Part shown: one piece after another, positions 9,245 to 25,674 of the stretch
Numbering within the stretch: position 1 is the stretch's first letter
Layout of the letters: every line of letters starts with the position of its first letter
Source of the DNA: an uncultured Flavobacteriaceae bacterium
GTDB lineage: Bacteria; Bacteroidota; Bacteroidia; Flavobacteriales; Flavobacteriaceae
Assembly (NCBI GenBank): GCA_947501625.1
Contig: CANMWN010000002.1
Coordinates: forward strand, 124,001-188,000
Direction: 5' to 3'
DNA length: 64,000 nucleotides
Position numbers and translations under genes: made by a program
Notes under the pieces: generated by a model
Told to the model about the DNA's origin: nothing
What the model saw: only the letters and a program-made list of their open reading frames with translations
Databases searched by the model: none

Positions 9245-9273
9245 AAAAAGGCTGGACAACGTCCAGCCTTTTT
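9245..9273 (-). terminator. Rho-independent terminator of the DUF937 gene
   Basis: A perfect stem AGGCTGGAC/GTCCAGCCT with a 3-base loop, flanked by A and T runs on both sides. It lies 19 bases after the stop of the leftward gene at 9292 and would work in either direction. Confidence 0.85.
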
Positions 9274-9291
9274 TTAATGATCTACAGTAAT

Positions 9292-9936
9292 TTATCTTTT
9301 TCCAAACAGTCCTCCCAAAAGTCCTCCTAAACCACTTTTTTTCTTTCCGCCACCGCTTAAAAGCATTCCAGCAACATCATCAATGATGCTTCCGTCACCA
9401 TCGGCATCTAAAAGACGGTTTACAAGACTTTGTTCTTGTTGACCTCCGCCACCAAGCATTCCTCCAAGTAGATTTCCTAAATCTCCTTGACTAGATACTT
9501 GTTTTTCTCTTTTTTGCTTTCCTAAATATCCCATAACTAATGGTCCAGCAATTTTTAAAATATTCATTGCACTTCCTAAATCAATTCCACTTGATTTACT
9601 TACTGCTTGTGCAACATTTTGTTCTTTACCACCAAAAACGTGACCTAATATCCCAGCACCATCATCCAATACATCTTGATCAATTCCGCCTCCTCCTAAG
9701 ATGCTTCCAAGATTATCCAAAATTCCTCCACTATGGCGGTCGTTTCCTAATGCTTTTAATAAACCTGCTGCTCCATCAGAAGTAGAAGCATTATTTTTCA
9801 TAGCACCTAATATCAATGGTAATGCAGTGCTTAATGCAGATTGTGTTTGTTGTTTTCCTTGTCCTAATTGTTGACTTGCACCGTTAATAAGTGTTTTTCC
9901 AATTGGACTATTTAAGAGGTCTAAAATTCCGCTCAT
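9292..9936 (-). CDS. DUF937 domain protein, glycine-rich
   Basis: A 214-residue protein. The N-terminal half (MSGILDLLNSPIGKTLINGA, then LSTALPLILGAMKNNA) is the helical DUF937 domain found in many Bacteroidota. The C-terminal half is low-complexity glycine (GGGKKKSGLGGLLGGLFG) with a calcium-loop-like DADGDGSIIDD at about residues 179-189. No signal peptide or membrane span. Function unknown; some DUF937 relatives are DNA-mimic or assembly-like proteins but nothing here decides that. Transcribed alone leftward with its own terminator. Confidence 0.85.
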   Translation of the reverse strand: MSGILDLLNSPIGKTLINGASQQLGQGKQQTQSALSTALPLILGAMKNNASTSDGAAGLLKALGNDRHSGGILDNLGSILGGGGIDQDVLDDGAGILGHVFGGKEQNVAQAVSKSSGIDLGSAMNILKIAGPLVMGYLGKQKREKQVSSQGDLGNLLGGMLGGGGQQEQSLVNRLLDADGDGSIIDDVAGMLLSGGGKKKSGLGGLLGGLFGKR

Positions 9937-10035: not shown

Positions 10036-11496
10036 CTATATTTTTAATAGTTTATTAATTATTGAAGTTTTTTCTTTCATCACTTTATTGTTTACTGATG
10101 AATATCCTAAAACTAAACCATCTTTTTTTTGCTTAGTTATATAATAATTACTGAGAGGATAAGCAATAACATTCTGATCTTGAAGTTTTTTAAATGCTTC
10201 AATATCCGGAATGTTACTTTTAATTTTGGCAATTAAATGTAAACCTTCATTGGATTTATTAATATCCAAAGTTTTTTTAGTCAATTCAATAAATAAATTT
10301 CTTCGCTCATTAGAAGTTTTAATTACATTCCTTAAATGCTTATTTAAATGTTCGTTACTTATAAACTCACTCATTATTGCTTGTGTAGATGAAGGTACAA
10401 ACCTGCTTGATTGTTCATAGATGGCTTTAATTGACTCGATAAGATAGTTTGGAACAATCATATAGCCAAGCCTCAATGATGGATGTAAAAGTTTATTAAA
10501 AGTTCCTTGATAAATTACTCTGTTTTGGGTGTCTAAACTAAAAATTGAAGGTATGGGTTTTTCCCAATTACTAAATTCATGATCATAATCATCTTCGATA
10601 ATTAATGAATTTTGATTTTTTGCCCAATCTAATAATTCTAAACGTCTTTGGTGACTCATTTTCACTCCTGACGGATATTGATTTGATGGAGTTGTATAAA
10701 TTAATTTTGTTTTTTCTTTAGGAATTGAGTCAATATTTATACCCTCAGTATCTAAATCACATGCAATAATGTTGGCTTTTAAACTTTTAAAAAGATTGTG
10801 AGCTCTTGGAAATGTTGGATTCTCCATCACAATTCTATCACCCTTATTGATAATGCTATTTCCAATTAAATAAAGTGAATGTAACGAGCCAGATACTATG
10901 ATAATTTGTTTATGATCACAATTAATATTTCTATATATTTTTAAGTACGTTGCTATATTGACCCTCAAAGTTTCTAACCCTTCTGAAGGAGCGTATGATA
11001 GGTTTGTTGGAGTTGATTCTCTCCAATATTTATTAGAAATAGTTTTCCATGTTTTTACTGGGAATAAATCAAGAGGAGGTAATCCTGGTCTAAATGCAAC
11101 GCTATCTTTTGAATAATTATCGGTTGAAATATATCGATATTTAGAAAATAATTTTGCTCTTTTAGAAATTGTTGGGTATTTATATTTTTTTTCTGAATTA
11201 GTATCTGCAGTAATTTTTTCTAGTTCATTTTTTTTGGGTAGTATATAGTATCCAGCACCTTGTTTTGAAATTATATGCTTTTCCAATAATAATAGTTCAT
11301 AAACTTTATTGACTGTGCTCCTAGAAATGTTTAAATCTTTAGCTAATTTTCTTGTTGCTGGTAATTTTAAATTTTCTGGCGCACCATTCGTAATAATTTC
11401 ATTTTTTAAAATTTTATATAAGTTTTGATAAATAGGTATATTGTCATTTTTCCATTGATTACTTGTTGTTATGATATTTTTAATATTGTAGTACAA
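10036..11496 (-). CDS. MocR-family PLP-dependent transcriptional regulator (GntR HTH plus aminotransferase)
   Basis: A 486-residue fusion. Residues about 20-90 are a GntR winged helix (PATRKLAKDLNISRSTVNKVYELL, seen in two parts). From about 130 onward it is a class I aminotransferase fold with SYAPSEGLETLR, IEDDYDHEF and the PLP lysine in QGTFNKLLHPSLRLGY. MocR proteins such as GabR, TauR and PdxR sense an amine or amino acid through PLP and usually control the divergent operon. Here the divergent operon is the peptide/D-amino-acid run starting at 11581. The only plausible start is TTG at 11496; no in-frame ATG precedes the HTH. The start overlaps one of two direct repeats likely to be its operator. 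Confidence 0.93.
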   Translation of the reverse strand: MYYNIKNIITTSNQWKNDNIPIYQNLYKILKNEIITNGAPENLKLPATRKLAKDLNISRSTVNKVYELLLLEKHIISKQGAGYYILPKKNELEKITADTNSEKKYKYPTISKRAKLFSKYRYISTDNYSKDSVAFRPGLPPLDLFPVKTWKTISNKYWRESTPTNLSYAPSEGLETLRVNIATYLKIYRNINCDHKQIIIVSGSLHSLYLIGNSIINKGDRIVMENPTFPRAHNLFKSLKANIIACDLDTEGINIDSIPKEKTKLIYTTPSNQYPSGVKMSHQRRLELLDWAKNQNSLIIEDDYDHEFSNWEKPIPSIFSLDTQNRVIYQGTFNKLLHPSLRLGYMIVPNYLIESIKAIYEQSSRFVPSSTQAIMSEFISNEHLNKHLRNVIKTSNERRNLFIELTKKTLDINKSNEGLHLIAKIKSNIPDIEAFKKLQDQNVIAYPLSNYYITKQKKDGLVLGYSSVNNKVMKEKTSIINKLLKI

Positions 11497-11530
11497 ATTG
11501 GTATGGTTTGAAAAATTAAATTGGTAGGTG
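11495..11530. promoter_or_regulatory. Direct repeat AAATTGGTA x2, candidate MocR operator
   Basis: AAATTGGTA occurs at 11495-11503 and again at 11518-11526, 23 bases apart in direct orientation, in the short divergent region between the MocR gene and the peptidase operon. The reverse complement of its core is TACCA. MocR proteins of the GabR type are known to bind spaced direct repeats containing ATACCA. Both position and half-site fit; binding is inferred. Confidence 0.5.
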
Positions 11531-11580
11531 CAATATAGTATATTATTGAATTAGTTTTAACAATATTTTTTAAAGTAAGA

Positions 11581-12819
11581 ATGAAGTTAATAGCTAAACA
11601 AATTATTCCATTTATTCATCTTCTTATTATCAGTCTATTAATTGGCTGTAATAGTTTAAAAACTGTCTCATTCAAAACTCCAGTCGATACAACAACAAAA
11701 AAGATACATATACTCGAAAAGCAAGTGTTTGAAGTGGAAGATATGGGTGTGTTTGCTAGTAATGATTTTGATGCTGCACATTTAAATGACATTAAAAAAG
11801 TTAATGATAGTACTTTGTTAATTTCTATAAAACCAGAAAACACTCCAATTAACAATAGCGCTTATTATGCCTTTAAAACTTGGTCTAGTATTCCTAAAAC
11901 TGTTTATTATACATTTAACTACCCAAAAGGCTTTAAACATCGTTATATTCCAAAATTGAAAAAGAATAAAGAATGGTATGTAATTGATTCTTCAAATTTT
12001 TTCAAAAAAGATTCTATTATTACTATAAAAGTAGAATTGGATGATAAACCTTTAATAATTGCTGCTCAAGAAATCCAATCATCTAAAGATGTAAAAAATT
12101 GGTATTCTAATTTAATAAAGGGTAAAGAAGAATATGTGCATTTTCAAAATTTTGGAAAATCTATTTTGGGTAGAGATTTACCAGTACTAGATATTTATAA
12201 GGGCGAAAAGAAAAATAAGCCAATAATAGTTTTGTTAACACGTCAACATCCGCCTGAAGTAACTGGCTATTTTGCATTTCAAGAATTTATACAAACTATA
12301 CTGAATGAATCAAAATTGTCTCAAGATTTTTTAAATAAATATAGAGTATTGGCTTTTCCAATTATGAATCCTGACGGTGTCGATTTAGGTCATTGGAGAC
12401 ATAATGCTGGAGGTGTAGATACCAATAGAGATTGGTCGGTTTATAATCAGCCAGAAGTAAGACAAACAGTTAAGTTTATTACTAAACAATCTAAAAAATC
12501 AGATTCAAAAATTATTTTAGGAATAGATTTCCATTCTACTTGGTATGATGTGTTTTATACCAATAAAAAGAGAATTGGTACAACATTGCCTAACTTTATA
12601 GATGATTGGTTTGAAGCATTAGAAAAGAATATCGAAAATTATAAAGTAAACGAAAAACCTGGAAATAGTAATAAGCCTGTGTCTAAAGGTTGGTTTTTAT
12701 ATGGACAAAATGCTACAGGAATTACTTATGAAATTGGAGATGCAACACCAAAAGAGAAAATTAAAATTATCGGTAGAGTTACTGCCGAGCAAATGATGAA
12801 TATTTTACTAAACAATTAA
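11581..12819 (+). CDS. M14 zinc carboxypeptidase, CCP-like, lipoprotein
   Basis: A 412-residue exported protein with a lipobox cysteine at 23 (LLIGC). Residues about 55-160 form a beta-sandwich-like domain (FDAAHLNDIKK, YYAFKT, KTVYYTFNY) resembling the N-domain that precedes the catalytic domain of cytosolic carboxypeptidases (M14B). The catalytic zinc ligands are H223 and E226 in RQHPPEVTG (the CCP form is RxHPGE) and H318 in DFHSTW. NPDGV and the substrate-carboxylate residues in HWRHNAGGVDTNRDW are present, and E384 in GITYEIGD is the general base. CCP-type enzymes often remove C-terminal or side-chain glutamate, so a glutamate-directed role fits its neighbours but is inference. First gene of the operon divergent from the MocR regulator. 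Confidence 0.88.
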   Translation: MKLIAKQIIPFIHLLIISLLIGCNSLKTVSFKTPVDTTTKKIHILEKQVFEVEDMGVFASNDFDAAHLNDIKKVNDSTLLISIKPENTPINNSAYYAFKTWSSIPKTVYYTFNYPKGFKHRYIPKLKKNKEWYVIDSSNFFKKDSIITIKVELDDKPLIIAAQEIQSSKDVKNWYSNLIKGKEEYVHFQNFGKSILGRDLPVLDIYKGEKKNKPIIVLLTRQHPPEVTGYFAFQEFIQTILNESKLSQDFLNKYRVLAFPIMNPDGVDLGHWRHNAGGVDTNRDWSVYNQPEVRQTVKFITKQSKKSDSKIILGIDFHSTWYDVFYTNKKRIGTTLPNFIDDWFEALEKNIENYKVNEKPGNSNKPVSKGWFLYGQNATGITYEIGDATPKEKIKIIGRVTAEQMMNILLNN

Positions 12820-12848
12820 TATTATTAACTAAACACAAATTTTAAAAC

Positions 12849-15800
12849 ATGATTAGGAAATTATTTTTATGTCTTTGTGCACTGCTACTGTCTAGCAATT
12901 TGTTTGCACAGATAACAGTTACAGGGACAGTAAGCGACAGCACAGGACCATTACCTGGTGCTTCTGTTATTGAAAAAGGAACCACTAATGGTATCGAAAC
13001 AGACTTTGATGGAAATTATTCCATTACAGTATCTGACGGTGCAACTTTAGTGATTAGTTTCATTGGCTACACCAATAAAGAAGTTATTGTAAATGGTCAA
13101 ACTCAAATTAATGTATTACTTGAAGAAGATGCACAAGCATTAGAAGAAGTAGTAGTTACTGCGCAAGGTATTAAGAAATCTAAAAAAGCTTTAGGTTATG
13201 CAATTACTAAATTAGATTCAGAAGATCTTGAAAAACGACCTGAAGCCAATTTAGCAAAAACAATGCAAGGTAAAATTGCAGGAGTTAACATTGCAACTAC
13301 ATCTGGTCAAAGTGGATCTGGCTCTAGTGTTGTAATTAGAGGAACAGTTTCAATAAATCAATCAAATGATCCTTTGATTGTCGTTAACAATGTGCCTTTT
13401 AACGGTCAATTAGCTGACATCAATCCAAACGACATTCAAAGCATGAATGTTTTGAAAGGTTTAAATGCAGCAGTATTATATGGTAGTGAAGGTAGAAATG
13501 GTGTGATCTTGATTCAGACTAAAAGTGGAAATGCAAATTTAGGAGAGCCAAGTATTTCAACTTCGTATTCTACCACCGTATATACAAATACGATTTCTCA
13601 ATTACCAAATTTTCAAAATACCTATGGTCAAGGACAAGAAGGGAATTTTATCCCTAGTTTTTTATCGGTTTGGGGACCTAGTTTTTCTTCTTTAGATGAA
13701 GTTTCGCATCCGTATGCAAATCTTGGAAGTATTTTTCCTGAATACGATGGATTGATGATTCCTTATACTGCTAAGCCTGATAATGTAAAGAATTTCTTTA
13801 ATACAGGTTCTGGTACTATTCACTCACTTTCTTTTTCTTCATCTCAAGAAAAAACAGGATTTAACCTTTCAGCAGGCTATACTGATGAAGAAGGTGTTGT
13901 TGCTAATAATAATTTAAAACGCTTTAATATTGGTATTGGAGGTAATGCTCAAGTAAGTGATAAGTTAAATGTTTCAGCAACGTTAAACTATTCTACACGT
14001 AAATTTAATTTTGTGTTATCACAATCTAGTACAAATAGAATTTTCTATTTGCCTAGAAATATTGATTTAACAGAAATGCCTTATCAAAATCCATTAACTG
14101 GAGAATCGGTATATTATAGAAATGATACAAATCCTTTATGGATTCTAAACAATTCTGGAATTGAAAATGATGTAGTTCGTGTTTTCGGAACATTTAATAC
14201 CAATTATAAGTTTAATGATAATTTAAATGTAACTTATAGAGTTGGTTTGGATAGTGAAACTAGAGAGCGTTTTAGTTATTCTAATAAAGGAGGATTTAGC
14301 GGAGATTTTTTAACTGGTTATCTTAACATAGATGAAGTTAAAGAAGTTATTGTTGATCAAACATTAATGTTGGGTTATAATAAAGATATAACTGATGATT
14401 TGAATTTTGAAGCCCAAATAGGTGCAAATTCTAAATTAACCAATGGTCAGGTGCTATCATCTGATTCTGATGGACAAATTGTTTATGGTTTTCTAAGACC
14501 TAGTAATTATACAACAACGGAATCATTATATGAAAAAAGTAGAGTGAATTTAGCCGGTGTTTTCGGTCAATTACAATTTGCCTATAAGAATTATTTATAT
14601 GCTACTGTATCTGGTAGAAATGATTGGGGAAGTACTGTTGAAAGTGAAAACCAATCTTTATTTTATCCTGGAACATCTATTTCATTTATTCCTACATCAG
14701 CATTTGATTTTGGAACAGATAAAATTAATTACTTAAAGTTGAGAGCAGCTTATGCAACATCTTCAGGTTTTCCCGATCCATATAATACAAGAAATACTTT
14801 GATAATTGACGCTTTACGTTTTGCATCAGCTGATGGTGCATTGCCAGTAACAAATAGATTTTCAACTGTTTTTGCTAACCCAGATTTAAGACCTGAATTG
14901 CATAAAGAATTTGAAATAGGTGTTGAAGCAAAATTATTTAATAACAGAGTTACTTTAGAAACATCATTATATAAGAGAATTTCTGAAGATCAAATCGTAA
15001 ACACTCCTGTAGCTCCTTCAACCGGATTTAGCACGCAATTTGTAAATTTAGGTAGAATTGACAACGAAGGTATTGAAGTTGATTTAGGTATCGATGTTAT
15101 TAAAAATGATAATTTTAAATGGAATTTAAGGAATATTTTTACTGCTGATGAATCGTTAGTAGTTGAAACACTTGGAGGAGCAAGAGTTCCATTAACTGCA
15201 GATAGATTTGCAGTTGAGGGATATCCGTTTGGAGCAATAGTTGGAGATTATGCATTAAGAGATGATAATGGAAATTTATTAATAGCTGCAACAAATGCTG
15301 GTAGTACAAGAGTAGGAGAGGTGATTGTGAGTTCAGATATTGGATTGCAAGATGAGGTTATTGGAGATCCAAATCCAGATTGGAAATGGACTACCATTAA
15401 TAGTTTAAAGTATAAAAACTTTACACTTTCAACTCAATTTGAGTATACGCATGGAGGGGAAATTTCTTCAAGTGCTGTTGAAGATTTATTGGAAAGAGGT
15501 GTAACTAGAGATACAGAAAATAGAGATGGCTCTTTTGTGATTCCAGGATTTTTAGCTGATAATGATACTGGAGAGATACTTTTAGATGCCAATGGTAATC
15601 AAATACCAAATAATATTCAACTAAATGGATTGAGAACAGTATTTTCTAATTATTATAATGCTAATGATTTAAGAATGTTTGACGCTTCTGTTTTTAGAAT
15701 TAGAGAAATTGCATTGGGATATACGTATAATCGAAAAGAAGGGCAAAAATTGCCTTTTAATTCAATTAGTTTTTCATTGACTGGAAGAAATTTATGGTAT

Positions 15801-15917
15801 AAAGCACCTAATTTCCCAGAGCATATAAATTTTGATCCTGAAAGCGATGGCGGTTTAGGTAGAAATACAATTCCAACCAACAAGCGTTTTGCTTTAGGTA
15901 TATCAGCAACATTTTAA
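12849..15917 (+). CDS. SusC/RagA-family TonB-linked outer-membrane transporter
   Basis: A 1022-residue TonB-dependent importer. Signal peptide at residues 1-21, carboxypeptidase-regulatory domain at about 23-110 (TVTGTVSDSTGPLPGASVIE), TonB-box-like linker ALEEVVVTAQG, plug domain to about 225 (NLAKTMQGKIAGVNI, VVIRGTVSI, DIQSMNVLKG, YGSEGRNGVILIQT), then a 22-strand-type barrel ending in the canonical phenylalanine (GISATF). It pairs with the SusD-like gene 20 bases downstream. SusCD pairs import glycans or peptides; the absence of glycoside hydrolases and presence of peptidase, D-aminoacylase and racemase genes point to a peptide or acyl-amino-acid ligand. Confidence 0.96.
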   Translation: MIRKLFLCLCALLLSSNLFAQITVTGTVSDSTGPLPGASVIEKGTTNGIETDFDGNYSITVSDGATLVISFIGYTNKEVIVNGQTQINVLLEEDAQALEEVVVTAQGIKKSKKALGYAITKLDSEDLEKRPEANLAKTMQGKIAGVNIATTSGQSGSGSSVVIRGTVSINQSNDPLIVVNNVPFNGQLADINPNDIQSMNVLKGLNAAVLYGSEGRNGVILIQTKSGNANLGEPSISTSYSTTVYTNTISQLPNFQNTYGQGQEGNFIPSFLSVWGPSFSSLDEVSHPYANLGSIFPEYDGLMIPYTAKPDNVKNFFNTGSGTIHSLSFSSSQEKTGFNLSAGYTDEEGVVANNNLKRFNIGIGGNAQVSDKLNVSATLNYSTRKFNFVLSQSSTNRIFYLPRNIDLTEMPYQNPLTGESVYYRNDTNPLWILNNSGIENDVVRVFGTFNTNYKFNDNLNVTYRVGLDSETRERFSYSNKGGFSGDFLTGYLNIDEVKEVIVDQTLMLGYNKDITDDLNFEAQIGANSKLTNGQVLSSDSDGQIVYGFLRPSNYTTTESLYEKSRVNLAGVFGQLQFAYKNYLYATVSGRNDWGSTVESENQSLFYPGTSISFIPTSAFDFGTDKINYLKLRAAYATSSGFPDPYNTRNTLIIDALRFASADGALPVTNRFSTVFANPDLRPELHKEFEIGVEAKLFNNRVTLETSLYKRISEDQIVNTPVAPSTGFSTQFVNLGRIDNEGIEVDLGIDVIKNDNFKWNLRNIFTADESLVVETLGGARVPLTADRFAVEGYPFGAIVGDYALRDDNGNLLIAATNAGSTRVGEVIVSSDIGLQDEVIGDPNPDWKWTTINSLKYKNFTLSTQFEYTHGGEISSSAVEDLLERGVTRDTENRDGSFVIPGFLADNDTGEILLDANGNQIPNNIQLNGLRTVFSNYYNANDLRMFDASVFRIREIALGYTYNRKEGQKLPFNSISFSLTGRNLWYKAPNFPEHINFDPESDGGLGRNTIPTNKRFALGISATF

Positions 15918-15936
15918 TTAAATAAAAAATATAAAA

Positions 15937-17538
15937 ATGAAAAATATATATAAATACTGTAGTTTAAGTCTACTTATTTCAGTTTTCTTTTACTCATGTG
16001 AAGTGACCGATTTTGATTTGCAGGATAATCCAAATCGATTAAATCCTGAAAGTGCGAATCCTGAATTTTTAATAAATGAAGTTCAGTATCTGTTTCAAGA
16101 TATTATGCAAGATTTTATTCTCAATACTGATGATGTAATGAGATATGAAGCAATGACGGATACTTATGGAGATGTAGTTGATACAGATGTATTGGATATT
16201 GAATGGACACGCTACTATAGAGCACTGACAATTTCTAGAGCTATAGATAATTTAGCTGCTACTGATGAAAAATTATTATTTCATAATGGAATTAATAAAT
16301 TATTAATGGGCTATTTAACAGCAACATTTGTTGATTATACTGGTAAAATACCATATTCTGAAGCTACACAGCCTAATGAATTTCCAAACCCTAATCTAGA
16401 TGAAGGAAATACACTTTATAGCATGGTACTTGATAATATTGATCAAGCTATTGTTGATATTAACGCTGCTACTTTTGGCGTAGATTCTGATTTGTTTTAT
16501 GATAGTGATAAAGCAAAATGGATAGCTTTTGCTAATTCACTAAAATTGAGATTATTAATCCAAACAAGATTGGCAAGTGGTGAAATAGGCGTTACTAATT
16601 TAAATGCCGAAATAAATTCATTATTAGGGATGGATATAATTGATTCTGAAGCTGAAGATTTTGTTTATAATTTTTCGGCAGTTGAAGAGCCTGAAAGTAG
16701 ACACCCATATTTTCAAAGAGGGTATGTTAGTGGTTTTTCTCAATATATAGGAAATTATTTCATGTGGATGCTTAAAGATTCTAAAGCTAATATTGATCCA
16801 AGAATAAGATATTATTTGTATAGACAATCTGATGTAGATCCATTTAGCGGACCACCTTACTTGGCTTGCCAAGGTGATCCTGATGTAGATTATTGTTATG
16901 TTGGTGACCAATATTGGGGCTTAGATCATGGAGAAACAAGAACAGGTAGAGGAGATAATTTGTTAAGAACTGTTTATGGAATTTATCCTGCAGGAGGAAC
17001 TTTTGATGAAGATCAATTTGAAGGTGCTCCGAGTACTGCTAGTTTAGGTGGAACAGGCTTTTTGCCATTATTGACTTCTTCTTATATTAAATTTTTGAGT
17101 GCCGAAGCTGCTTTAGTTTTAGGAACAAATGGAAATCCAGCCGTATTATTGGAAGAAGCAATTAGAGCCTCAATAGGTAAGGTGTTAAATTATGGTGGTG
17201 TTTCATCTTCGTTTGCTTCATCTTCTTCTGATGTTGATGCTTATGTTGCTGAAGTGATTAATAATTATAATAACGCAGCTGATAATGATGAACGATTAGA
17301 TATAATAATGACTGAATACTATTTGGCATCTTTTGGAAACTCAATTGAGTCTTATAATGCTTACAGAAGAACAGGTTATCCATCTAATATGCAAATACCA
17401 ATTGATAATGACAACCCAACATTTCCACGTAGTTTTCCTTATTCGGAAAATGCTGTAGATGTAAATACATCACTAATTCAAAAATCAAATAGTGATAAGG
17501 TATTCTGGGATACTAATCCAGATTCATTTATTAAATAA
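15937..17538 (+). CDS. SusD/RagB-family nutrient-binding lipoprotein (SusD-like_2 type)
   Basis: A 533-residue surface lipoprotein with a lipobox cysteine at 21 (VFFYSC). DNPNRLNPESANPEFLINE near residues 28-46 and the TPR-like helices with ALTISRAIDN, NKLLMGYLTATF and FANSLKLRLLIQTRLA are the SusD-like_2 (RagB) pattern. FVDYTGKIPYSEA and the C-terminal YLASFGNSIESYNAYRRTGYP are also typical. It acts as the lid and binding partner of the SusC gene immediately upstream. Full length with no anomaly. Binding pocket residues cannot be assigned from sequence. Confidence 0.95.
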   Translation: MKNIYKYCSLSLLISVFFYSCEVTDFDLQDNPNRLNPESANPEFLINEVQYLFQDIMQDFILNTDDVMRYEAMTDTYGDVVDTDVLDIEWTRYYRALTISRAIDNLAATDEKLLFHNGINKLLMGYLTATFVDYTGKIPYSEATQPNEFPNPNLDEGNTLYSMVLDNIDQAIVDINAATFGVDSDLFYDSDKAKWIAFANSLKLRLLIQTRLASGEIGVTNLNAEINSLLGMDIIDSEAEDFVYNFSAVEEPESRHPYFQRGYVSGFSQYIGNYFMWMLKDSKANIDPRIRYYLYRQSDVDPFSGPPYLACQGDPDVDYCYVGDQYWGLDHGETRTGRGDNLLRTVYGIYPAGGTFDEDQFEGAPSTASLGGTGFLPLLTSSYIKFLSAEAALVLGTNGNPAVLLEEAIRASIGKVLNYGGVSSSFASSSSDVDAYVAEVINNYNNAADNDERLDIIMTEYYLASFGNSIESYNAYRRTGYPSNMQIPIDNDNPTFPRSFPYSENAVDVNTSLIQKSNSDKVFWDTNPDSFIK

Positions 17539-17556
17539 ACTAAACAATTTATAATT

Positions 17557-18708
17557 ATGAAAAATATATTAAAAATATTTATTTGCTACCTTTTAGTTGT
17601 TGGTTGTAGTAGTGATGACAACAACTTATTAGAAGATATAGCAATAAGAGGAGGCTTTGTGCAATTTACAGAGGCACCTACAACATTAGACATAAATATA
17701 CTTGATTTGGATACAGCAAGTATAACAGAAGGGTTAATTGATCCTAATGAGAATATTATTAGTTATTCCTTAAATCTTTTTTATGAAGATCAGGTAATTA
17801 CAGATTTTTTAGTACTAAACTCATTTCCTAATAATTTAAATATCCCAATTTCTGATATACTTTCAGCATTAGGATTAACAAATGATGATGTGAGTTTGAG
17901 TACTGAATTTACTTTTATTGCACTAATAAATACTACAACAGGAACTTTCTCTGGAGAATCTCCAAACTTCGATAGTAATGGAGTGAATTTAGGAGGAGAT
18001 TCTACAGTAAGATTAAAATCTAATGGTTTAAGAGATGCTATTGAGTTTGATGTAACCTTTTTCCAACCACCTGCAAAAACAATTAAAGGAACTTCTTTTG
18101 AAGAAGTACCAGTTGGTGACGAAAATGCAGAGTTTGTAAATAATTTAGGTGTTAATGTAGATGGTAATTTAGTTAATGGTGCGAATCCACCATTTGTAAA
18201 TTTCGTTTCTGCTGGAGGTGAAATCGGATTCAGTTCTGAGTTTGTTGGTGTATCAGGAATCAGTAGTTCTAGTCTTGGATTTAGTTCAGAGCGTATTGGA
18301 GTTACAACTGCTTTAGAAGATGTAGACCCTTTTCCAGACGGAACACATGCATTTCATATTGAAGATCCTGATGGTGCAATAAGAATTACATTTGATACTG
18401 TTGATGTTCCTGCAGGTCAAGAAAAATCAGGAGTTTCTTTTCAATATTTTTTAAGAACTACAAGTTGGGAAACTTTAGATGGTATTATTGCTTACGCTAA
18501 TATAACAACTGATACTGGAAATGATGTAGTTCAAATTTTACACGCTTTAGATGACGATGCTGAAGATGCAGAAGGTATTTGGAATACTGCAAACACTGGT
18601 TTTTTAACAGGTGTAAGATCATATCAATTAGTAATTGAAATGCAATCAGGTCACGACACTGAAGATATTTATATAGACAATATCATTGTATATGAACCTG
18701 AACCATAA
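17557..18708 (+). CDS. Outer-membrane lipoprotein accompanying the SusCD pair
   Basis: A 383-residue lipoprotein: signal ending LVVGC with the acceptor cysteine at 17, followed by SSDDNN, an acidic lipoprotein export signal of the flavobacterial kind. The body is beta-rich, with about residues 30-130 an Ig-like part and about 170-383 a jelly-roll-like part containing TSFEEVP, FHIEDPDGAIRITFDTVDVP and IYIDNIIVYEP, the last resembling carbohydrate-binding-like or MAM-type folds. No enzymatic motif seen. Position directly after SusD suggests a SusE/SusF-like accessory binding protein. I do not recognise a named family. Confidence 0.78.
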   Translation: MKNILKIFICYLLVVGCSSDDNNLLEDIAIRGGFVQFTEAPTTLDINILDLDTASITEGLIDPNENIISYSLNLFYEDQVITDFLVLNSFPNNLNIPISDILSALGLTNDDVSLSTEFTFIALINTTTGTFSGESPNFDSNGVNLGGDSTVRLKSNGLRDAIEFDVTFFQPPAKTIKGTSFEEVPVGDENAEFVNNLGVNVDGNLVNGANPPFVNFVSAGGEIGFSSEFVGVSGISSSSLGFSSERIGVTTALEDVDPFPDGTHAFHIEDPDGAIRITFDTVDVPAGQEKSGVSFQYFLRTTSWETLDGIIAYANITTDTGNDVVQILHALDDDAEDAEGIWNTANTGFLTGVRSYQLVIEMQSGHDTEDIYIDNIIVYEPEP

Positions 18709-18753
18709 AATTTAATCGAATTTGAATTTAAATTAAATTTTGTTTAGTTATTT

Positions 18754-18784
18754 GAGGTTGTTCGATATCTTTTTGAGCAGCCTC
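18754..18784 (+). other. Hairpin in the intergenic gap within the operon
   Basis: A 10-base stem, GAGGTTGTTC at 18754-18763 with GAGCAGCCTC at 18775-18784, pairs with two G-U wobbles in RNA around an 11-base loop. No T run follows, so it is not a normal terminator. It sits in the only sizeable gap (94 bases) of the operon, between the binding lipoprotein and the D-aminoacylase. It may protect mRNA ends or mark a processing point. Confidence 0.4.
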
Positions 18785-18802
18785 ATTTAAAATATATTGT
18801 AA

Positions 18803-20365
18803 ATGAAATATTTGAAATTAAAAATATTATTTCTTTTCTCATTGCCGTTCTTTTCTTGTACTAAAGAAAAAATTGACGCTGATATTTTAATAAAAAATGG
18901 AATAGTTTATAACGGTGTTGATAAAACTTCAACCAATAATACTATCGCCATTAAAGATGATAAAATTGTTTTTGTAGGTAATGAAAATTCTGTGTCAATT
19001 ACAGCAAATAAAATAATTGATGCTAAAGGATTAATTGTTTCTCCTGGATTTATAGATCCCCACACACATGCAGATAGAGATTTAAAAAACCCCAAAAACT
19101 CACATAATAAACCGTTTTTATTTCAAGGGATAACAACGGTAATTACAGGAAATGATGGTAATAGTTTTTATCCAACTTCAAAATATGTTGACTTATATAA
19201 TAGTCACAAAATAGGCACTAACGCTGTTCCTTTAGTTGGTCACGGAACGGTTAGAGAACAAGTAATGGGTAAAAGTGATAGAAAAGCAACCGCTGATGAA
19301 ATTTCTAAAATGCAAAACCTTGTGCAACAAGAAATGGACGCTGGTGCTTTTGGTATTTCTACAGGTTTGTTTTATTCTCCTGGAAGTTATTCTAATACTG
19401 AAGAAGTAATTGCACTTGCAAAAACTGTTGCTAAAAACGATGGAGTTTATGATACGCATTTACGTGACGAAAGTTCGTATACAGTAGGTCTAATTCCAGC
19501 CATTGAAGAAGCTATAGAAATTGGGAGACAAGCAAAATTACCTATTCATATTTCTCACATAAAATGTTTAGGTGTTGATGTATGGCGTCAAAGTGATTCA
19601 ATTGTAAAAATAGTTGAGGATGCTCAAAAAGAAGGAGTCAAAGTTTCCGCAAATCAGTATCCATATGATGCTTCTGCAACAGGATTAAAATCAGCAGTGG
19701 CACCGCGTTGGGCAGAGAGTGGAGGAAAAGATTCATTGTTTATACGTTATAAAGACCCGAAATTAACTCAGAGAATTTTAGAAGACACTAAAAAGAATAT
19801 TACTCGTCGTGGAGGACCTGACAAACTGTTAATTGTGAAATCAGAAGAGTCAAAATTTGTTGGGAAAAACTTATTTGAAATTTCAAAAATGTTGAATGTT
19901 TCTCCAGAAGTTGCTGTGTTTAAAGCGTTAGAAACGGGTTATGTAAGAGTGGCTTCTTTTAATATGAATTCTTACGATATTCATAATTTTATGAAACAAG
20001 ATTGGGTTGTCACTGGTTCTGACGGAAATACAGGTCATCCAAGAAAATATGGTTCTTTCCCTAGAAAATACCATAAATATGTACAGCAAGAAAAAGTATT
20101 AGATATAGCTTCATTTATCAATGGAAGCACTTCAAAAACTGCTGATATTTTCAAAATTAGAAACAGAGGAAAACTGCTTGAAGGCTATTTTGCCGACATT
20201 ATCATTTTTAATCCAAAGACCTTTAAAGATCTTGCAGATTATACAGATGCATTTCAGCTATCAGAAGGTTTAGAATATAGTATTATCAACGGGAAAATTT
20301 CAGTTGAAAACGGAAAATTTACAGAAAAATTAAATGGAAAAGTTTTAAATAAATCATCATTATGA
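18803..20365 (+). CDS. N-acyl-D-amino-acid deacylase (D-aminoacylase family), lipoprotein
   Basis: A 520-residue amidohydrolase with a lipobox-like N-terminus (FFSC, cysteine 19), so it acts in the periplasm or on a membrane face. The metal site is DPHTHAD (H87, H89), H219 in YDTHLRDES, H252 in IHISHIKC and D407 in VTGSDG. In the well-studied Alcaligenes D-aminoacylase the block GVTTVVxGNCG supplies a metal-binding cysteine; here the aligned residue is D118 (TGNDGN). The family releases D-amino acids from N-acyl forms. The stop overlaps the start of the racemase (ATGA), implying tight co-translation and a shared pathway. Exact acyl group and side chain are unknown. Confidence 0.9.
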   Translation: MKYLKLKILFLFSLPFFSCTKEKIDADILIKNGIVYNGVDKTSTNNTIAIKDDKIVFVGNENSVSITANKIIDAKGLIVSPGFIDPHTHADRDLKNPKNSHNKPFLFQGITTVITGNDGNSFYPTSKYVDLYNSHKIGTNAVPLVGHGTVREQVMGKSDRKATADEISKMQNLVQQEMDAGAFGISTGLFYSPGSYSNTEEVIALAKTVAKNDGVYDTHLRDESSYTVGLIPAIEEAIEIGRQAKLPIHISHIKCLGVDVWRQSDSIVKIVEDAQKEGVKVSANQYPYDASATGLKSAVAPRWAESGGKDSLFIRYKDPKLTQRILEDTKKNITRRGGPDKLLIVKSEESKFVGKNLFEISKMLNVSPEVAVFKALETGYVRVASFNMNSYDIHNFMKQDWVVTGSDGNTGHPRKYGSFPRKYHKYVQQEKVLDIASFINGSTSKTADIFKIRNRGKLLEGYFADIIIFNPKTFKDLADYTDAFQLSEGLEYSIINGKISVENGKFTEKLNGKVLNKSSL

Positions 20366-21897
20366 AAAAAAATAGACTAATAATTTCATTTTTTACACTA
20401 CTGTTTTTAGTGAGTTGTAAAGAAAATTCGAAGAAAAATGAAGTAGCAATTAATAATTCTACGGACATTGTTTCAACAATTATTAACGATTCGGATAGTT
20501 TTTATCATATTGATATGGCTAATTACCCAAGTGCTGATAAATCATTACCAATTGGTGTTTTTGATTCAGGAACTGGAGGGTTAACCGTTTTAAAAGCCAT
20601 TGTAAATTATGATCAAAATACAAATGAATCTCATGAAAAAGGAAGTGATGGACAGTTAGATTTTGACAAGGAATCTTTTATTTATCTTGGAGATCAAGCC
20701 AATATGCCTTATGGAAACTATTCAAAAGAAAACAAAGTTGATTTATTGAAAGAACACATTATTAAAGATGCGCAATTTTTAATGGGAAATAAATACTATT
20801 CCGATGTAAACGACAATTCTGTAAATATAGATAAAAAACCAGTTAAAGCCTTGGTAATTGCTTGTAACACTGCAACTGCCTATGGAAAAGAATATATTGA
20901 GGATTTTTTAAAGAAAGCCAATTCTAATTTAAAAGTAATCGGCGTTATTGATGCTGGAGTTCGCGGTACTTTAGCGAGTATTAAAAAAGATGAAGATGCT
21001 ATTATTGGTGTATTGGCAACTGCTGGAACGGTGGCTTCAAAAGGGTATAGTAATACCATTTTGAAAATGAAAGATGAGTTGGATTATACAGGAAGTATTG
21101 AAGTGTTTTCTCAAGGTGGCGTTGGTATAGCTGAAGCGGTGGATGAAGATCCAAATTATTTTAATAAAAATTTAAAAAAACCTCGTAAAGATTATAAAGG
21201 TCCTAGTTTAAATGGCGATGTTCAAATTGATAAAACCTTGTTTGATGTTTATAACTTTGATTTTGAAGATAGCAAAATGCTCTGTGATACCGAAAAATCT
21301 GATGATTGCTCTATTTTGCAAATAAATGACGCCAAAAACTATGTGCGTTATCATTTAGTTACGCTAATGGAACAAATTCGTTTGTCAAAAACTAAAAACA
21401 AATTAAAATCTATTATTTTGGGTTGCACACATTATCCTTATATGACAGATGAAATTGATGCTATATTAAAAGAATTATATAGTTATAAAGATAAAAATGG
21501 AAAGTATTTATATCGTGATTTTATGGTAGAAAATGTGCAGTTAATTGATCCAGCAGTTGATACTGCTAAAGAGTTACACGAGTATTTGAAGCAAGAAAAA
21601 TTATTCAATCCTAATGGAAATATAAAAGATAGCGAGTTTTATATTAGTGTAGCAAATAAAGATAATCCAAATAATAAAATAGATAGCGATGGACGTTTTC
21701 CTTATGATTACAAATATGGAAGAAATGTAAATGAAATACAAGAATACGTAAAGGTAGTTCCTTTTAGTAGAGATAATATTTCTTATGATATATTAACTCG
21801 TTTTCAAAAACAAATTCCTTATGTCTATCAGTTGATGCAAAATTTTAATCAGCATAGTGAAAAAACAACTCATCTTGAAACTAAACAAAAGATTTAA
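20362..21897 (+). CDS. Exported lipoprotein of the glutamate/aspartate racemase family
   Basis: A 511-residue protein with a lipoprotein signal (LFLVSC, cysteine 19) followed by a MurI-like domain. The racemase residues are present: VFDSGTGGLTVL (D68, S69), ACNTATAYG (C168) and GCTHYPY (C355, H357), so both catalytic cysteines are kept. MurI enzymes are about 265 residues and cytoplasmic; this one has insertions at about 85-105, 140-160 and 260-320 and a C-terminal extension after about 400 (YKYGRNVNEIQEYVKVVPF). Coupled to the D-aminoacylase by an ATGA overlap, it probably converts the released D-Glu or D-Asp to the L form outside the cytoplasm. It is unlikely to be the cell-wall MurI. Racemase activity of the extended form is inference. 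Confidence 0.85.
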   Translation: MKKNRLIISFFTLLFLVSCKENSKKNEVAINNSTDIVSTIINDSDSFYHIDMANYPSADKSLPIGVFDSGTGGLTVLKAIVNYDQNTNESHEKGSDGQLDFDKESFIYLGDQANMPYGNYSKENKVDLLKEHIIKDAQFLMGNKYYSDVNDNSVNIDKKPVKALVIACNTATAYGKEYIEDFLKKANSNLKVIGVIDAGVRGTLASIKKDEDAIIGVLATAGTVASKGYSNTILKMKDELDYTGSIEVFSQGGVGIAEAVDEDPNYFNKNLKKPRKDYKGPSLNGDVQIDKTLFDVYNFDFEDSKMLCDTEKSDDCSILQINDAKNYVRYHLVTLMEQIRLSKTKNKLKSIILGCTHYPYMTDEIDAILKELYSYKDKNGKYLYRDFMVENVQLIDPAVDTAKELHEYLKQEKLFNPNGNIKDSEFYISVANKDNPNNKIDSDGRFPYDYKYGRNVNEIQEYVKVVPFSRDNISYDILTRFQKQIPYVYQLMQNFNQHSEKTTHLETKQKI

Positions 21898-21902
21898 AAG
21901 TT

Positions 21903-23207
21903 ATGATAACAAATAAAAAAGCATTTATAATAATAGTTATTCTTTGCTCATTTTTAGTATTTAATTGCTCATCAGGAGGTGGAGACGATGAAGAAATTGA
22001 TATATCAGCACCAACAATTCCAACAAACCTTCAAGCAACAAATATTACACAAACTACAGTGAATTTATCTTGGTCTGCATCAACCGATAATGTTGGAGTT
22101 TCCAGTTATTCTATTTATAACAATAATACAGCCTTAGTTAGTTCAGTAAATACATCTACTACCATAAGTGGTCTTACTGAAGACACTACTTACAATTTTA
22201 AAGTTACTGCAAGAGATGCTGCAGGTAATGTGTCTAATTTTAGTAGCACATTGAGTGTAACTACCGAAGCTGATAATAGTACTTTGTTAACAGCATCTGG
22301 AGATATTGAAAACTATATTGGTAATTTAATAGATACTTTCCCAGGAAATTCAGGCAATGAATATTCTGCACCATTACTCACCGAATTAAATACTTGGAAT
22401 ACGGTTATTGATAATATATTGCAAGAAAATCTTACAAATGCTGTTGCTGATGCTGGAAGTTTAGGTTATCAAATAACCGAATATACCGATACAACTATTA
22501 GTCCTAATCAAATATTTTATATTCTTGAAAAAAAATCGAGCCAATCAAATTATTGGGGCACTTATGTTTTTAGCAAAACACCAACAAGAGATAACTTGGT
22601 TTTAATGGCTCCGCATTCAAAATATGACACTAATACTGGTAAAGAAGCAGTATATTGTTTTAAAAATACGCTTGCTAAAGCATTATTTATTAACGGTACT
22701 CACAGATGTAATAGTAGCGAAGCATCTTCTTGTTCAGGTTCAACAAGTGCTTGTGGTTCAAGCGCATCATACAGAATTTCTGACTTGGCACATACTACTA
22801 CTTCAGCATATCAAAAAACTACCGAAAATTTATTTAATAATGTTAGTAATTCTGTTTTTGTTCAATTGCATGGTTTTGCTATGCAGCCAACAGATCCTTA
22901 TGTAATTATGAGTAATGGTACTAGAGAGACACCAACAACAGATTATGCAACTTTACTTAAAGATGCTTTATTTGCCGAAGATAATATGTTGACTTTTAAA
23001 TTAGCACATATTGATACAGATTGGGATAGATTGATAGGTTTTACTAATACTCAAGGCAGACTAATAAATAATTCGGTAAATCATTGTAGTAGTTCAGCAA
23101 CAACTACTTCAGGAAGGTTTATCCATGTAGAGCAAGAACGAACAAGATTAAGAGAGAATGAGAGTGGGTGGATTAAAATGAGTAATGCACTGAAAAATGT
23201 TTTTTAA
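21903..23207 (+). CDS. Fn3-domain lipoprotein with a putative zinc hydrolase domain
   Basis: A 434-residue lipoprotein (cysteine 22, FNCSSGGGDDEE). One fibronectin type III domain spans about residues 36-121 (PTIPTNLQATNITQTTVNLS, in the standard Fn3 form). From about 225 a second domain has APHSKYDTNTGKEAV (H238, E248), FVQLHGF (H323) and HVEQER (E410, E412). The order His...Glu...His...Glu recalls N-formylglutamate amidohydrolase and poly-gamma-glutamate hydrolase/M14-type folds. A cysteine- and serine-rich loop at 269-287 and C395 may be disulfide-bonded. Last gene of the operon, 5 bases after the racemase and before the terminator at 23235. Hydrolase role is inference from motif order and context. 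Confidence 0.7.
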   Translation: MITNKKAFIIIVILCSFLVFNCSSGGGDDEEIDISAPTIPTNLQATNITQTTVNLSWSASTDNVGVSSYSIYNNNTALVSSVNTSTTISGLTEDTTYNFKVTARDAAGNVSNFSSTLSVTTEADNSTLLTASGDIENYIGNLIDTFPGNSGNEYSAPLLTELNTWNTVIDNILQENLTNAVADAGSLGYQITEYTDTTISPNQIFYILEKKSSQSNYWGTYVFSKTPTRDNLVLMAPHSKYDTNTGKEAVYCFKNTLAKALFINGTHRCNSSEASSCSGSTSACGSSASYRISDLAHTTTSAYQKTTENLFNNVSNSVFVQLHGFAMQPTDPYVIMSNGTRETPTTDYATLLKDALFAEDNMLTFKLAHIDTDWDRLIGFTNTQGRLINNSVNHCSSSATTTSGRFIHVEQERTRLRENESGWIKMSNALKNVF

Positions 23208-23234
23208 GTTCCTAATTATTTTTATTTAATTGTT

Positions 23235-23266
23235 AAAAAACCGAGTGAATTCACTCGGTTTTTTTT
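23235..23266 (+). terminator. Terminator ending the peptide/D-amino-acid operon
   Basis: A perfect palindromic stem AACCGAGTG/CACTCGGTT with loop AATT, flanked by A and T runs, 28 bases after the stop of the Fn3 lipoprotein. It separates that operon from the symporter gene. Confidence 0.9.
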
Positions 23267-23303
23267 ATCTTTCCACTTCAATTAATTTAAAAGAAACTAA
23301 CAC

Positions 23304-24611
23304 ATGAAAAAACTAGCACTACATTGGAAAATTTTATTAGGAATGCTCTTTGGAGTTATTGTTGGTATTATTATGACCAATTTTGATTGGGGAATGAAAT
23401 TTGTGCAAGATTGGATAAAACCATTTGGGAAAATTTTCATTAACTCTTTAAAATTAATTGCGATTCCATTGATTCTAGCTGCATTAATAAAAGGAGTTTC
23501 TGATTTGAAAGATATTTCTAAACTTTCGTTAATGGGAGGTAGAACAATAGGGATTTATATTTCAACAACTATAATTGCAGTAAGTATAGGTTTATTACTG
23601 GTAAATTTAGTTGATCCTGGAAACTCTATTTCTGAGAAGACTAGAACTGAAATGGTTAAAAATTATAGTGGAGATACTACTAAATATAAGGAAACTGCAA
23701 AAAAGCAAAAGGAAAGTGGCCCTTTGCAAGCGCTTGAAGATATTGTACCTCAAAATATTTTTTCATCAGCAACTAGTAATAGAAATATGTTGCAAGTAAT
23801 ATTTTTTGCTGTCTTTTTTGGAGTGGCTCTAATTTTAATTCCTGAAGAAAAAGGTAGAACAGTCAAAGATTTTTTTGATGGGCTCAACGAAGTCATTTTA
23901 AAAATGGTAGATTTAATAATGTTGGCTGCTCCTTATGGTGTTTTTGCATTATTGGCAGCGCTAGTTGTAGAGTCTCCAAGTATAGATTTATTTAAAGCGC
24001 TTGGTTGGTATGCATTGACAGTTGTTTTAGGATTAATTGCAATGATTGGAGTTTATATTATGTTGGTGAAAATATTTACAAAAAAGAACCCAAAGTTTTT
24101 TGTAAACGGAATTTCACCTGCACAATTGTTAGCGTTTTCTACTAGTTCTAGTGCGGCTACATTACCAGTTACAATGGAAAGAGTAACTGAACATTTAGGT
24201 GTTGAAGAAGAAGTCGCAAGTTTTGTATTACCTATTGGAGCGACAATTAACATGGACGGAACAAGTTTATATCAAGCTGTAGCTGCTGTGTTTATTGCAC
24301 AAGCATTTGGAATGGACTTAACTTTTGGTACTCAATTGGGAATTATAGCTACAGCTACATTAGCATCAATTGGTTCGGCGGCAGTTCCAGGTGCAGGAAT
24401 GGTTATGTTAGTTGGTGTTTTGGGTTATGCTGGGATTCCTGAAGCTGGATTGGCATTGATTTTTGCAGTTGATAGACCATTAGATATGTGTAGAACGACT
24501 GTGAATGTAACTGGAGATGCAGCTGTTTCGATGATTGTTGCAAAATCGGTAGGGAAACTTGGCGAACCTCATGTGAAAAATTGGGATGATCATTATGATG
24601 AAGTAAAGTAA
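23304..24611 (+). CDS. Dicarboxylate/amino acid:cation symporter (SLC1/DAACS family, glutamate-type)
   Basis: A 435-residue inner-membrane transporter with about eight membrane segments and two hairpins. The family signatures are TSSSAATLPVT near residue 280 (first hairpin tip), NMDGTSLYQ at about 315-323 (TM7 sodium and substrate site) and DRPLDMCRTTVNVTGDAA near the C-terminus (TM8; the DxxxDxxRTxxNV block). The conserved TM8 arginine in MCRTTVN is the residue that binds the side-chain carboxylate in glutamate/aspartate carriers, so an acidic substrate is likely. Placed straight after the D-amino-acid operon, it would import the released L-Glu or L-Asp, though it has its own transcription start after the terminator. 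Confidence 0.94.
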   Translation: MKKLALHWKILLGMLFGVIVGIIMTNFDWGMKFVQDWIKPFGKIFINSLKLIAIPLILAALIKGVSDLKDISKLSLMGGRTIGIYISTTIIAVSIGLLLVNLVDPGNSISEKTRTEMVKNYSGDTTKYKETAKKQKESGPLQALEDIVPQNIFSSATSNRNMLQVIFFAVFFGVALILIPEEKGRTVKDFFDGLNEVILKMVDLIMLAAPYGVFALLAALVVESPSIDLFKALGWYALTVVLGLIAMIGVYIMLVKIFTKKNPKFFVNGISPAQLLAFSTSSSAATLPVTMERVTEHLGVEEEVASFVLPIGATINMDGTSLYQAVAAVFIAQAFGMDLTFGTQLGIIATATLASIGSAAVPGAGMVMLVGVLGYAGIPEAGLALIFAVDRPLDMCRTTVNVTGDAAVSMIVAKSVGKLGEPHVKNWDDHYDEVK

Positions 24612-24633: not shown

Positions 24634-25668
24634 ATGAATATCTGTTTTTTGATGTATCCTTGGGAAGATATTAAATCTCCCGAAAATGATACTAGTTTAG
24701 CATTGATTCATGAATGTGCTAAACGTGGTCATGGTGTAGCGATCTGTACACCAGCAAATTTGACAATTAGAAATAGTATTACAAATGCATTTTGTACCAT
24801 TATTGAGCGAATGGAAAAAATTCCAGGTTCAATTAAATCTTATTATAAAAAAGCGACAACTAGAGAAGAAATGTTACCGCTTGCTGGTTTTGATGCTATT
24901 TTTATGCGTGCTGAACCGCCTCTAGATCCGTTAATGCTCAATTTTCTGGATTCTGTAAAAGATGATGTGTTTATTATCAATTCTGTTAGAGGAATGCGTG
25001 AAGCAAATAATAAATTATATACAGCAGTTTTTGAAGATCCTAATAATGAAATAATCCCTGTAACTCATGTGTCAAAGAACAAAAATTATTTGATTAGAAT
25101 GATTGAAGAATCTAATTCTGACAAAATGATTTTGAAACCATTAAACGGTTTTGGAGGTTCAGGAGTTATATTGATAGAAAAATCTGCAATGGGAAATATT
25201 AATTCTTTATTAGATTTTTATATCAGTAAACAGGATGGAAATTCTGATTATGTAATTTTGCAAGAGTATATTGAAGGAGCAGATAAAGGAGATGTGAGAG
25301 TTTTAATGCTAAATGGTATTCCAATTGGAGCTATGAAACGTGTTCCAGGTGATAAAGATCATCGTTCAAATGTCTCGGCAGGAGGAAGAGTAGAAAAGCA
25401 TAGACTTACTGCTCAAGAAAAATTACTATGTAAAAAAATTGGGCCTAAGTTGATAAAAGATGGTTTGTACTTTGTTGGAATTGATGTAATAGGAGGTAAA
25501 TTGGTAGAGGTCAATGTTATGAGTCCTGGAGGTATAACTTACATAAACAAAGTTTATAAAGTAAAACTACAAGAAAAAGTTATCGACTTTTTAGAAAGCA
25601 AGATTTTAGAAAGAAGTGCTTCTTTTAGAAGAGTTAGTGACTTAAAACGAAGAGTAGAAGAAGCATAG
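24634..25668 (+). CDS. gshB: Glutathione-synthetase-type ATP-grasp ligase
   Basis: A 344-residue ATP-grasp enzyme. The GshB blocks are all visible: MNICFLMYPWEDIKSPEND, FMRAEPPLDP, INSVRGMREANNKLY, ILKPLNGFGGSGV, LQEYIEGADKGDVRVLM, NVSAGGRVEKHRLTA and VEVNVMSPGGI. GshB joins glycine to gamma-glutamylcysteine. No gshA is in the window, and the gene heads a tight cluster with a sulfurtransferase, an N-formylglutamate-amidohydrolase-like protein and a QEGLA metallopeptidase. In such clusters the ligase may act on a different gamma-glutamyl or peptide substrate, so the symbol reflects sequence family, not proven reaction. It ends 6 bases before the next gene. Confidence 0.85.
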   Translation: MNICFLMYPWEDIKSPENDTSLALIHECAKRGHGVAICTPANLTIRNSITNAFCTIIERMEKIPGSIKSYYKKATTREEMLPLAGFDAIFMRAEPPLDPLMLNFLDSVKDDVFIINSVRGMREANNKLYTAVFEDPNNEIIPVTHVSKNKNYLIRMIEESNSDKMILKPLNGFGGSGVILIEKSAMGNINSLLDFYISKQDGNSDYVILQEYIEGADKGDVRVLMLNGIPIGAMKRVPGDKDHRSNVSAGGRVEKHRLTAQEKLLCKKIGPKLIKDGLYFVGIDVIGGKLVEVNVMSPGGITYINKVYKVKLQEKVIDFLESKILERSASFRRVSDLKRRVEEA

Positions 25669-25674
25669 TATATA

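Follow-up and report, generated by a model that had tools for sequence, protein, structure and literature searches.

We analysed a 64,000-nucleotide stretch of the genome of an uncultured Flavobacteriaceae bacterium (contig CANMWN010000002.1, positions 124,001 to 188,000; hereafter the window), which holds a Sus-type uptake locus encoding a lipoprotein of the MurI glutamate racemase type. Judged from its sequence, this lipoprotein racemase belongs to a real family that is apart from MurI, and the block in which it is encoded recurs in other genomes. We put at about even the chance that the locus acquires γ-D-glutamyl peptides as nutrients, most likely peptidoglycan stem peptides, with conversion of D-Glu to L-Glu before uptake.

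Results

Lipoprotein racemases form a family apart from MurI

The racemase of the window has in common with MurI the catalytic Cys pair and the motifs FDSG, PxG, ACNTA and GCTHY. Unlike MurI it is a lipoprotein of about 510 residues with insertions of 17, 16, 56 and 19 residues relative to the MurI of its own genome, plus an extended C-terminus, and it groups separately in the tree. Both cysteines (ACNT and GCTH motifs) are present in 38 of 38 full-length racemases, as are FDSG, ACNTA and GCTHY, and this conservation disfavours a dead enzyme; the fragments of loci L025 and L052 cannot show both cysteines and lie outside this set. A branch with 100/100 support splits the 38 lipoprotein racemases from 18 MurI rows. 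A long-branch warning applies to this tree; the branch of row M_L101 is very long, and we guess that the row is probably partial. The MurI loci L091 and L094 and the third homologues L112-L114 have no row in the tree. As M_L090, M_L093 and M_L101 were removed before the motif alignment, the latter contains 15 MurI rows.

Using a simple pattern, a lipobox is found in 29 of 34 racemase rows, the exceptions being L010, L048, L053, L056 and the fragment L025. By this pattern the family would not share the cytoplasmic, signal-peptide-free nature of MurI. MurI also scores over its cut-off in 20 of the 21 carrier genomes, so that the lipoprotein racemase is additional there; one of the 20, G006, holds only a racemase fragment. 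A misannotated cytosolic MurI was rejected as an explanation, since the own genome encodes MurI on another contig. In genome G655 (99% complete; locus L053) only the lipoprotein racemase is present, and no MurI match over the cut-off was found.

The locus recurs with exchanged SusC/SusD types

Loci were gathered from a racemase scan of genome contigs (21 loci), genome searches and extra stretches; together 40 bear the racemase, including the window and the two fragments. The racemase occurs in 14 of 397 genomes of the family (own included; one a fragment with stops), in 8 of 395 phylum-sample genomes (own included) and in 11 of 79 genomes of the family of G444 (one partial). It is missing from two congeners in the family search (G113 and G310). 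Carriers are Bacteroidota, among them Hyunsoonleella aestuarii, plus one metagenome-assembled genome (MAG) labelled Calditrichota.

The window clade comprises 27 loci, namely a 25-row tree clade that holds the window (support 95/99) and the fragments L025 and L052, which were placed by context and identity. The gene of a D-aminoacylase-like enzyme (acylase) lies directly upstream of the racemase gene in 22 of these loci (22 of 40 overall). In the remainder it is directly downstream (L053), a few genes downstream (L051) or not found beside the racemase (L008 and L050), while L025 is a racemase fragment at a contig end. A SusC-type gene is likewise present in 22 of the 27 loci (22/40 overall), and both SusC and SusD are assigned in 21, L053 being without SusD. 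The other counts are lower bounds, several loci ending before the MocR or M14a gene: M14a is found in at least 20 loci, the Fn3 hydrolase in 14, SLC1 in 11, a DAP_DH_C-type dehydrogenase in 8, a divergent MocR in 5, GGT in 4 and M20 in 3. The divergent MocR adjoins M14 also in L009, L014, L016 and L021. Because the same block recurs in other genomes it is not a chance arrangement. Three unlike SusC/SusD types accompany the same pair, i.e. the porin is swapped among relatives while the enzymes are retained.

A decayed copy of the pair is seen in L052:8314-9614 (G006), where the acylase is shortened and only the C-terminus of the racemase is left, followed by SLC1. In one genome a phage-type integrase (L005:13169-14467) lies directly past the locus, in keeping with the patchy distribution.

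Organization of the locus in the window

In the window a divergent MocR gene precedes a run of M14, SusC, SusD, accessory lipoprotein, acylase, racemase and Fn3 hydrolase genes, followed by a terminator-like stem and SLC1 (Table 1). Families were assigned using Pfam and NCBIfam scans and solved relatives from PDB sequences. The positions and order of the nine open reading frames (ORFs) given by the sequence-only reading were borne out, including the overlap of 4 bases between acylase and racemase; the distances from M14 to the Fn3 gene are 29, 19, 18, 94, -4 and 5 bases. SLC1 starts 96 bases past the end of the Fn3 gene and is probably a separate transcript because the stem sits in between. 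The run had also been described as terminator-bounded. This holds downstream, where the stem closes it, but not upstream: a further ORF (9292-9936) separates MocR from the strong stem at 9244-9274 on the minus strand, leaving a clear boundary on the downstream side only. Between 8000 and 26000 there are 10 terminator-like sites versus 6.4 expected, and a promoter scan was uninformative (92 sites versus 98.5 expected).

Table 1. Features of the locus in window coordinates
Feature	Position	Strand	Evidence
MocR-type regulator, GntR helix-turn-helix and aminotransferase-like domain, divergent	10036..11496	-	NF052282 PdxR 391.2 bits, cut-off 320
M14 lipoprotein carboxypeptidase, CCP-like	11581..12819	+	PF00246 5.3e-20
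SusC/RagA TonB-linked outer-membrane protein	12849..15917	+	TIGR04056 570.2 bits, over cut-off
SusD-like_2 lipoprotein, acidic residues past lipid cysteine	15937..17538	+	PF12771 8e-40, lipobox
Accessory lipoprotein LP383 (383 aa)	17557..18708	+	lipobox
Lipoprotein amidohydrolase (Amidohydro_3), nearest D-aminoacylases	18803..20365	+	PDB 1m7j 1.2e-60; 3gip N-acyl-D-Glu deacylase 1.3e-43
Lipoprotein MurI-type glutamate racemase with insertions, ~510 aa	20362..21897	+	TIGR00067 E 7.7e-31
Lipoprotein, Fn3 and predicted zinc-hydrolase-like domain (22269-23204)	21903..23207	+	fn3 2.3e-12; predicted fold
Intrinsic-terminator-like stem	23235..23264	+	13-pair stem with T tail, 3' of Fn3 gene
SLC1 (Glu/Asp-type) symporter, SDF family	23304..24611	+	PF00375 5.9e-127

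The run resembles SusCD/RagAB-type nutrient loci known from Bacteroidota in that the SusC and SusD genes adjoin each other and stand together with those of an accessory lipoprotein and lipoprotein hydrolases; it differs in that a peptidase, an acylase and a racemase take the place of glycan enzymes, and a MocR regulator is added. The lipobox cysteines reported earlier for the enzymes were confirmed for M14, acylase, racemase and Fn3 protein, and SusD and the 383-residue lipoprotein have them too. The earlier statement that no glycoside hydrolase is encoded also stands: the Pfam scan matched no such domain in the run, and an exoglucanase NCBIfam model covers the Fn3 region only (84 of 1950 bits). 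Nor is a glycoside hydrolase found among the assigned genes of the homologous SusC-bearing blocks, whose unassigned flanking genes are mostly unscanned. A glycan-utilisation reading was rejected for the window on these grounds.

The motifs HPPE, NRDW, DFHS and TYEIGD of the M14 protein are kept in 19 of 19 aligned rows, and all 19 have the HxxE...H zinc site and catalytic Glu of M14 carboxypeptidases. Among its solved relatives are PDB 3l2n (5.5e-13) and CCP5 (3.8e-6), the latter matched over part of the protein only, in a short stretch. LP383 gave no family match in the Pfam and NCBIfam scans, and its gene comes after that of one and the same SusD type (5 of 5 loci). For SLC1 the best NCBIfam model is GltP, with a score under its cut-off, and the aspartate transporter 9bgz is matched in the PDB (8.1e-98). 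The cluster downstream of SLC1 (24634-28500) comprises a glutathione-synthetase-like ATP-grasp protein, a rhodanese, an FGase (PF05013) and a homologue of MATCAP, a tyrosine carboxypeptidase family; its counterparts also come after SLC1 in L006.

To predict location we counted acidic residues at +2 to +6 after the lipid cysteine. The mean is 1.8, 2.1 and 1.1 for the SusD types (one L020 row is mis-set), 0.35 for M14a, 0.79 for the racemase and 0.81 for the acylase, the last two often with Lys. Under the lipoprotein export-signal rule for these residues, as given in the available parts of PMC5080379, this suggests a surface location for SusD and periplasm-facing M14, acylase and racemase. The predicted location of the Fn3 protein is ambiguous (mean 0.6; its acidic residues come slightly further along).

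The acylase departs from D-aminoacylases in its metal site

The acylase had been called a lipoprotein D-aminoacylase. Its nearest solved relatives are indeed such enzymes, and AfDam, BbDam and OngB are sequence relatives that share its HxH, two His, Lys, catalytic Asp and carboxylate-binding Arg (HPR). These residues are kept in all acylase rows covering each (24, or 23 where L052 ends early). PMC12017989 reports strict conservation of the Cys ligand and the other binding residues among D-aminoacylases, and a contact of BbDam to the γ-carboxylate through Arg295. Unlike AfDam, BbDam and OngB as described there, the acylase has Asp in place of the bridging Cys, hence no Cys/His/His metal site of subtype V D-aminoacylases, and in our reading of the alignment the conserved Ser position varies (A, G, S, R, N). 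Because of these two departures we use D-aminoacylase only as the name of its nearest relatives and do not class the enzyme itself as one, although it may still be able to cut N-acyl-D-Glu. In 22 of 24 rows the insertion domain has an Arg, a candidate for a γ-carboxylate contact like that of BbDam Arg295, to which its alignment is not confident. An OngB-type GlcNAc1A deacetylase is disfavoured, since our alignment reading places Thr at OngB Ser292 and no chitin gene is assigned in the run.

The Fn3 lipoprotein carries a predicted zinc-amidase fold

For the C-terminal domain of the Fn3 protein, Pfam gave no hit with E of 1 or lower, the poly-γ-glutamate hydrolase family PF05908 included, and a profile of this domain retrieved nothing from PDB sequences (best E 1.1). 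As a model of the whole protein had low quality over its catalytic part (mean predicted local distance difference test, pLDDT, 63.2) and its structure matches were swamped by Fn3, the domain was remodelled alone using 31 aligned sequences: that of the window, those of 12 orthologues and, from the rows that reach over the catalytic domain, the best 18. At least five weaker partial matches to this domain (G484, G511, the second of G542, G625 and G636) were unused; the whole protein has matches in 77 of 395 phylum-sample genomes, most listed rows covering the Fn3 part only. The AF2 model of the domain has a pLDDT of 93.3 and a pTM of 0.93. In Foldseek the FGase 2q7s ranks top (2.8e-6), followed by M14 relatives, with TM-scores of only about 0.4. 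VIA-align gives Z 13.1 for 2q7s (root-mean-square deviation 2.3, 168 of 312 residues aligned), 12.8 for FGase 2odf and for the integrative model 9a7d, 12.4, 12.3 and lower for murein amidases, 11.6 (3a9l), 11.3 and 10.3 for the poly-γ-glutamate hydrolases (3a9l, 21dc and 5onj), and about 10 to 11 for carboxypeptidases. According to the model, the domain is of the zinc-amidase fold of M14, FGase, poly-γ-glutamate hydrolase and Amidase_3, activities which the fold does not separate; with FGase, poly-γ-glutamate hydrolase and Amidase_3 it shares the predicted fold and no sequence-family match.

Relatives of the racemase lie in salvage-like neighbourhoods

Among the 13 loci outside the window clade (L023, L024, L054-L059, L130-L134), an AmpG-like permease is present in seven (L055, L057, L059, L131-L134), a BadF kinase in six and a GH3-beta-lactamase in four (L057, L059, L130, L131), all nearby and not always adjacent; in eight of them an AmpG-like or GH3-beta-lactamase gene lies near the racemase. 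C26 is found in L023 and GGT in L024. For the two permeases scanned AmpG is the best NCBIfam model (160.1 and 171.7 bits, under the TIGR00901 cut-off of 350), and the L059 permease matches PDB AmpG 8zgz (2e-17). The GH3 part in L059 reaches 158.7 of 207 bits with a beta-N-acetylhexosaminidase model, and the kinase 117.6 of 370 with N-acetylglucosamine kinase. The available parts of two reports on Tannerella forsythia place its N-acetylmuramic acid (MurNAc) kinase MurK in the BadF family and describe uptake of wall disaccharides by AmpG (PMC5790795, PMC7670621). This MurNAc/muropeptide salvage system (murTKQ, AmpG) has in common with the relatives the BadF-family kinase and the AmpG-like permease, there near the racemase; as described in those parts it salvages sugars, whereas the window locus, without sugar enzymes, appears aimed at glutamate.

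Within the window clade, the L050 racemase is nested beside L014/L012 (100/95), and its neighbours are GH3, GH18, NagB-PIG-L and an FAD oxidase. NagB scores over its cut-off, GH3 and the oxidase under theirs, and the best model for the oxidase is D-2-hydroxyglutarate dehydrogenase, not a D-lactate enzyme. In L051, GGT, two PF05013 FGases, a penicillin amidase and beta-lactamase-family and S9 hydrolases accompany racemase, acylase and SLC1, and GGT lies near the acylase-racemase pair in L007, L020 and L022. Eight of the 27 loci encode a 2,4-diaminopentanoate/dihydrodipicolinate-reductase-like dehydrogenase (L005:6203-7198 in one of them), a possible hint that the substrate includes a diamino acid, for example diaminopimelic acid (DAP). 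The own genome has no AmpG match at E 0.001 (model positive in 5 of 14 controls).

Discussion

The sequence-only reading had placed in this stretch a Sus-type locus for peptides, directed at glutamate, whose lipoprotein racemase would lie outside the cytoplasm. That reading is supported in part: this much stands, extended by the recurring gene order and by γ-glutamyl and peptidoglycan-salvage-like contexts; the substrate, the locations, the direction of flow and every activity are what we infer from them. In the sequence of events that we propose, the Fn3 hydrolase would cleave at or near the surface, SusCD and its lipoprotein would import the fragments, the M14 enzyme would trim them in the periplasm and the acylase-like enzyme would release D-Glu. 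The lipoprotein racemase would then convert D-Glu to L-Glu, to be taken up through SLC1, and MocR would respond to an amino-acid signal, as regulators of this family usually do. Once freed in the envelope, D-Glu must either be racemised or follow a D-specific route; the locus supplies a racemase and, behind the terminator, a Glu/Asp-type symporter. The lack of an AmpG match in the own genome fits periplasmic dismantling.

Several observations weigh against this scheme. The racemase scores 107.4 bits with TIGR00067, under the cut-off of 146.65. All 15 MurI rows have a Glu at position 150 of the own MurI, which we take to be the active-site Glu; none of the 38 lipoprotein racemases has Glu there, and the five of these rows displayed have Asp. 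In the acylase the bridging Cys ligand is replaced by Asp in 24 of 24 rows, and the protein of the window lacks the Ser reported as strictly conserved. SLC1 lies behind the terminator-like stem, and none of the enzymes of the run is specific for D-Ala, DAP or the sugars of muropeptides. As for the relatives, no AmpG-like, GH3 or kinase assignment reaches its NCBIfam cut-off, and L054, L056 and L058 show no related context.

The main rival substrate is poly-γ-glutamate or another γ-glutamyl polymer, because every enzyme of the window could act on it: the Fn3 protein would be a surface depolymerase, M14 and acylase would trim oligomers, and each enzyme could yield Glu only. The predicted fold match to the hydrolases 3a9l, 21dc and 5onj, GGT in L007, L020 and L022 and C26 in L023 are consistent with it. 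FGase and murein amidases, however, match the Fn3 domain equally or better, PF05908 has no match in the own genome (a weak negative, the model being positive in 1 of 14 controls), and this polymer leaves unexplained why the same racemase family sits in AmpG/GH3-type loci. We favour peptidoglycan on the basis of these salvage-like loci and regard the polymer as unlikely.

Recycling of the cell's own wall turnover products, in place of foraging, is improbable. The AmpG/BadF/GH3 contexts of relatives resemble recycling and the own genome lacks an AmpG match, but SusCD systems import from outside and the racemase is patchy within the family (14 of 397 genomes). It would be just as surprising if the locus served general N-acyl or peptide hydrolysis to L-Glu or other acidic products, with the racemase on a minor branch or another substrate; the altered acylase active site and the M20, penicillin-amidase, S9 and beta-lactamase-family hydrolases of relatives speak for it, the retention of ACNTA and GCTHY and the Glu/Asp-type symporter against it. 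That the racemase, such enzymes being reversible, makes extracellular D-Glu for envelope modification or signalling is very improbable, as its companion genes encode hydrolases and importers.

Returning to peptidoglycan, we suggest tentatively, at somewhat less than even confidence, that an undescribed family of membrane-anchored MurI-type racemases lets Bacteroidota and the Calditrichota-labelled MAG use D-Glu of peptidoglycan or γ-D-glutamyl polymers outside the cytoplasm. Entry would be through SusCD and dismantling periplasmic, only L-Glu would cross the inner membrane, and AmpG and D-amino-acid dehydrogenases would be unneeded. While Sus-type uptake loci are of a known kind, this cargo and the lipoprotein racemase are, to our knowledge, not described; a literature search covering few subscription papers found neither an extracytoplasmic MurI-type racemase nor such a locus. 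Among the papers listed are some on D-Glu growth, on the use of DAP in marine settings and on deep-sea use of peptidoglycan, and those listed on poly-γ-glutamate deal mostly with its biosynthesis.

For annotation, a lipoprotein 'glutamate racemase' of about 510 residues adjoining a D-aminoacylase-like gene is probably catabolic and not a cell-wall MurI. The D-Glu of bacterial walls is a large pool of nitrogen and carbon. If the proposal is true, glutamate racemisation would take place outside the cytoplasm, and marine Bacteroidota would have, in a Sus-type locus whose racemase is anchored in the envelope, a concrete, testable route to the use of wall D-Glu.

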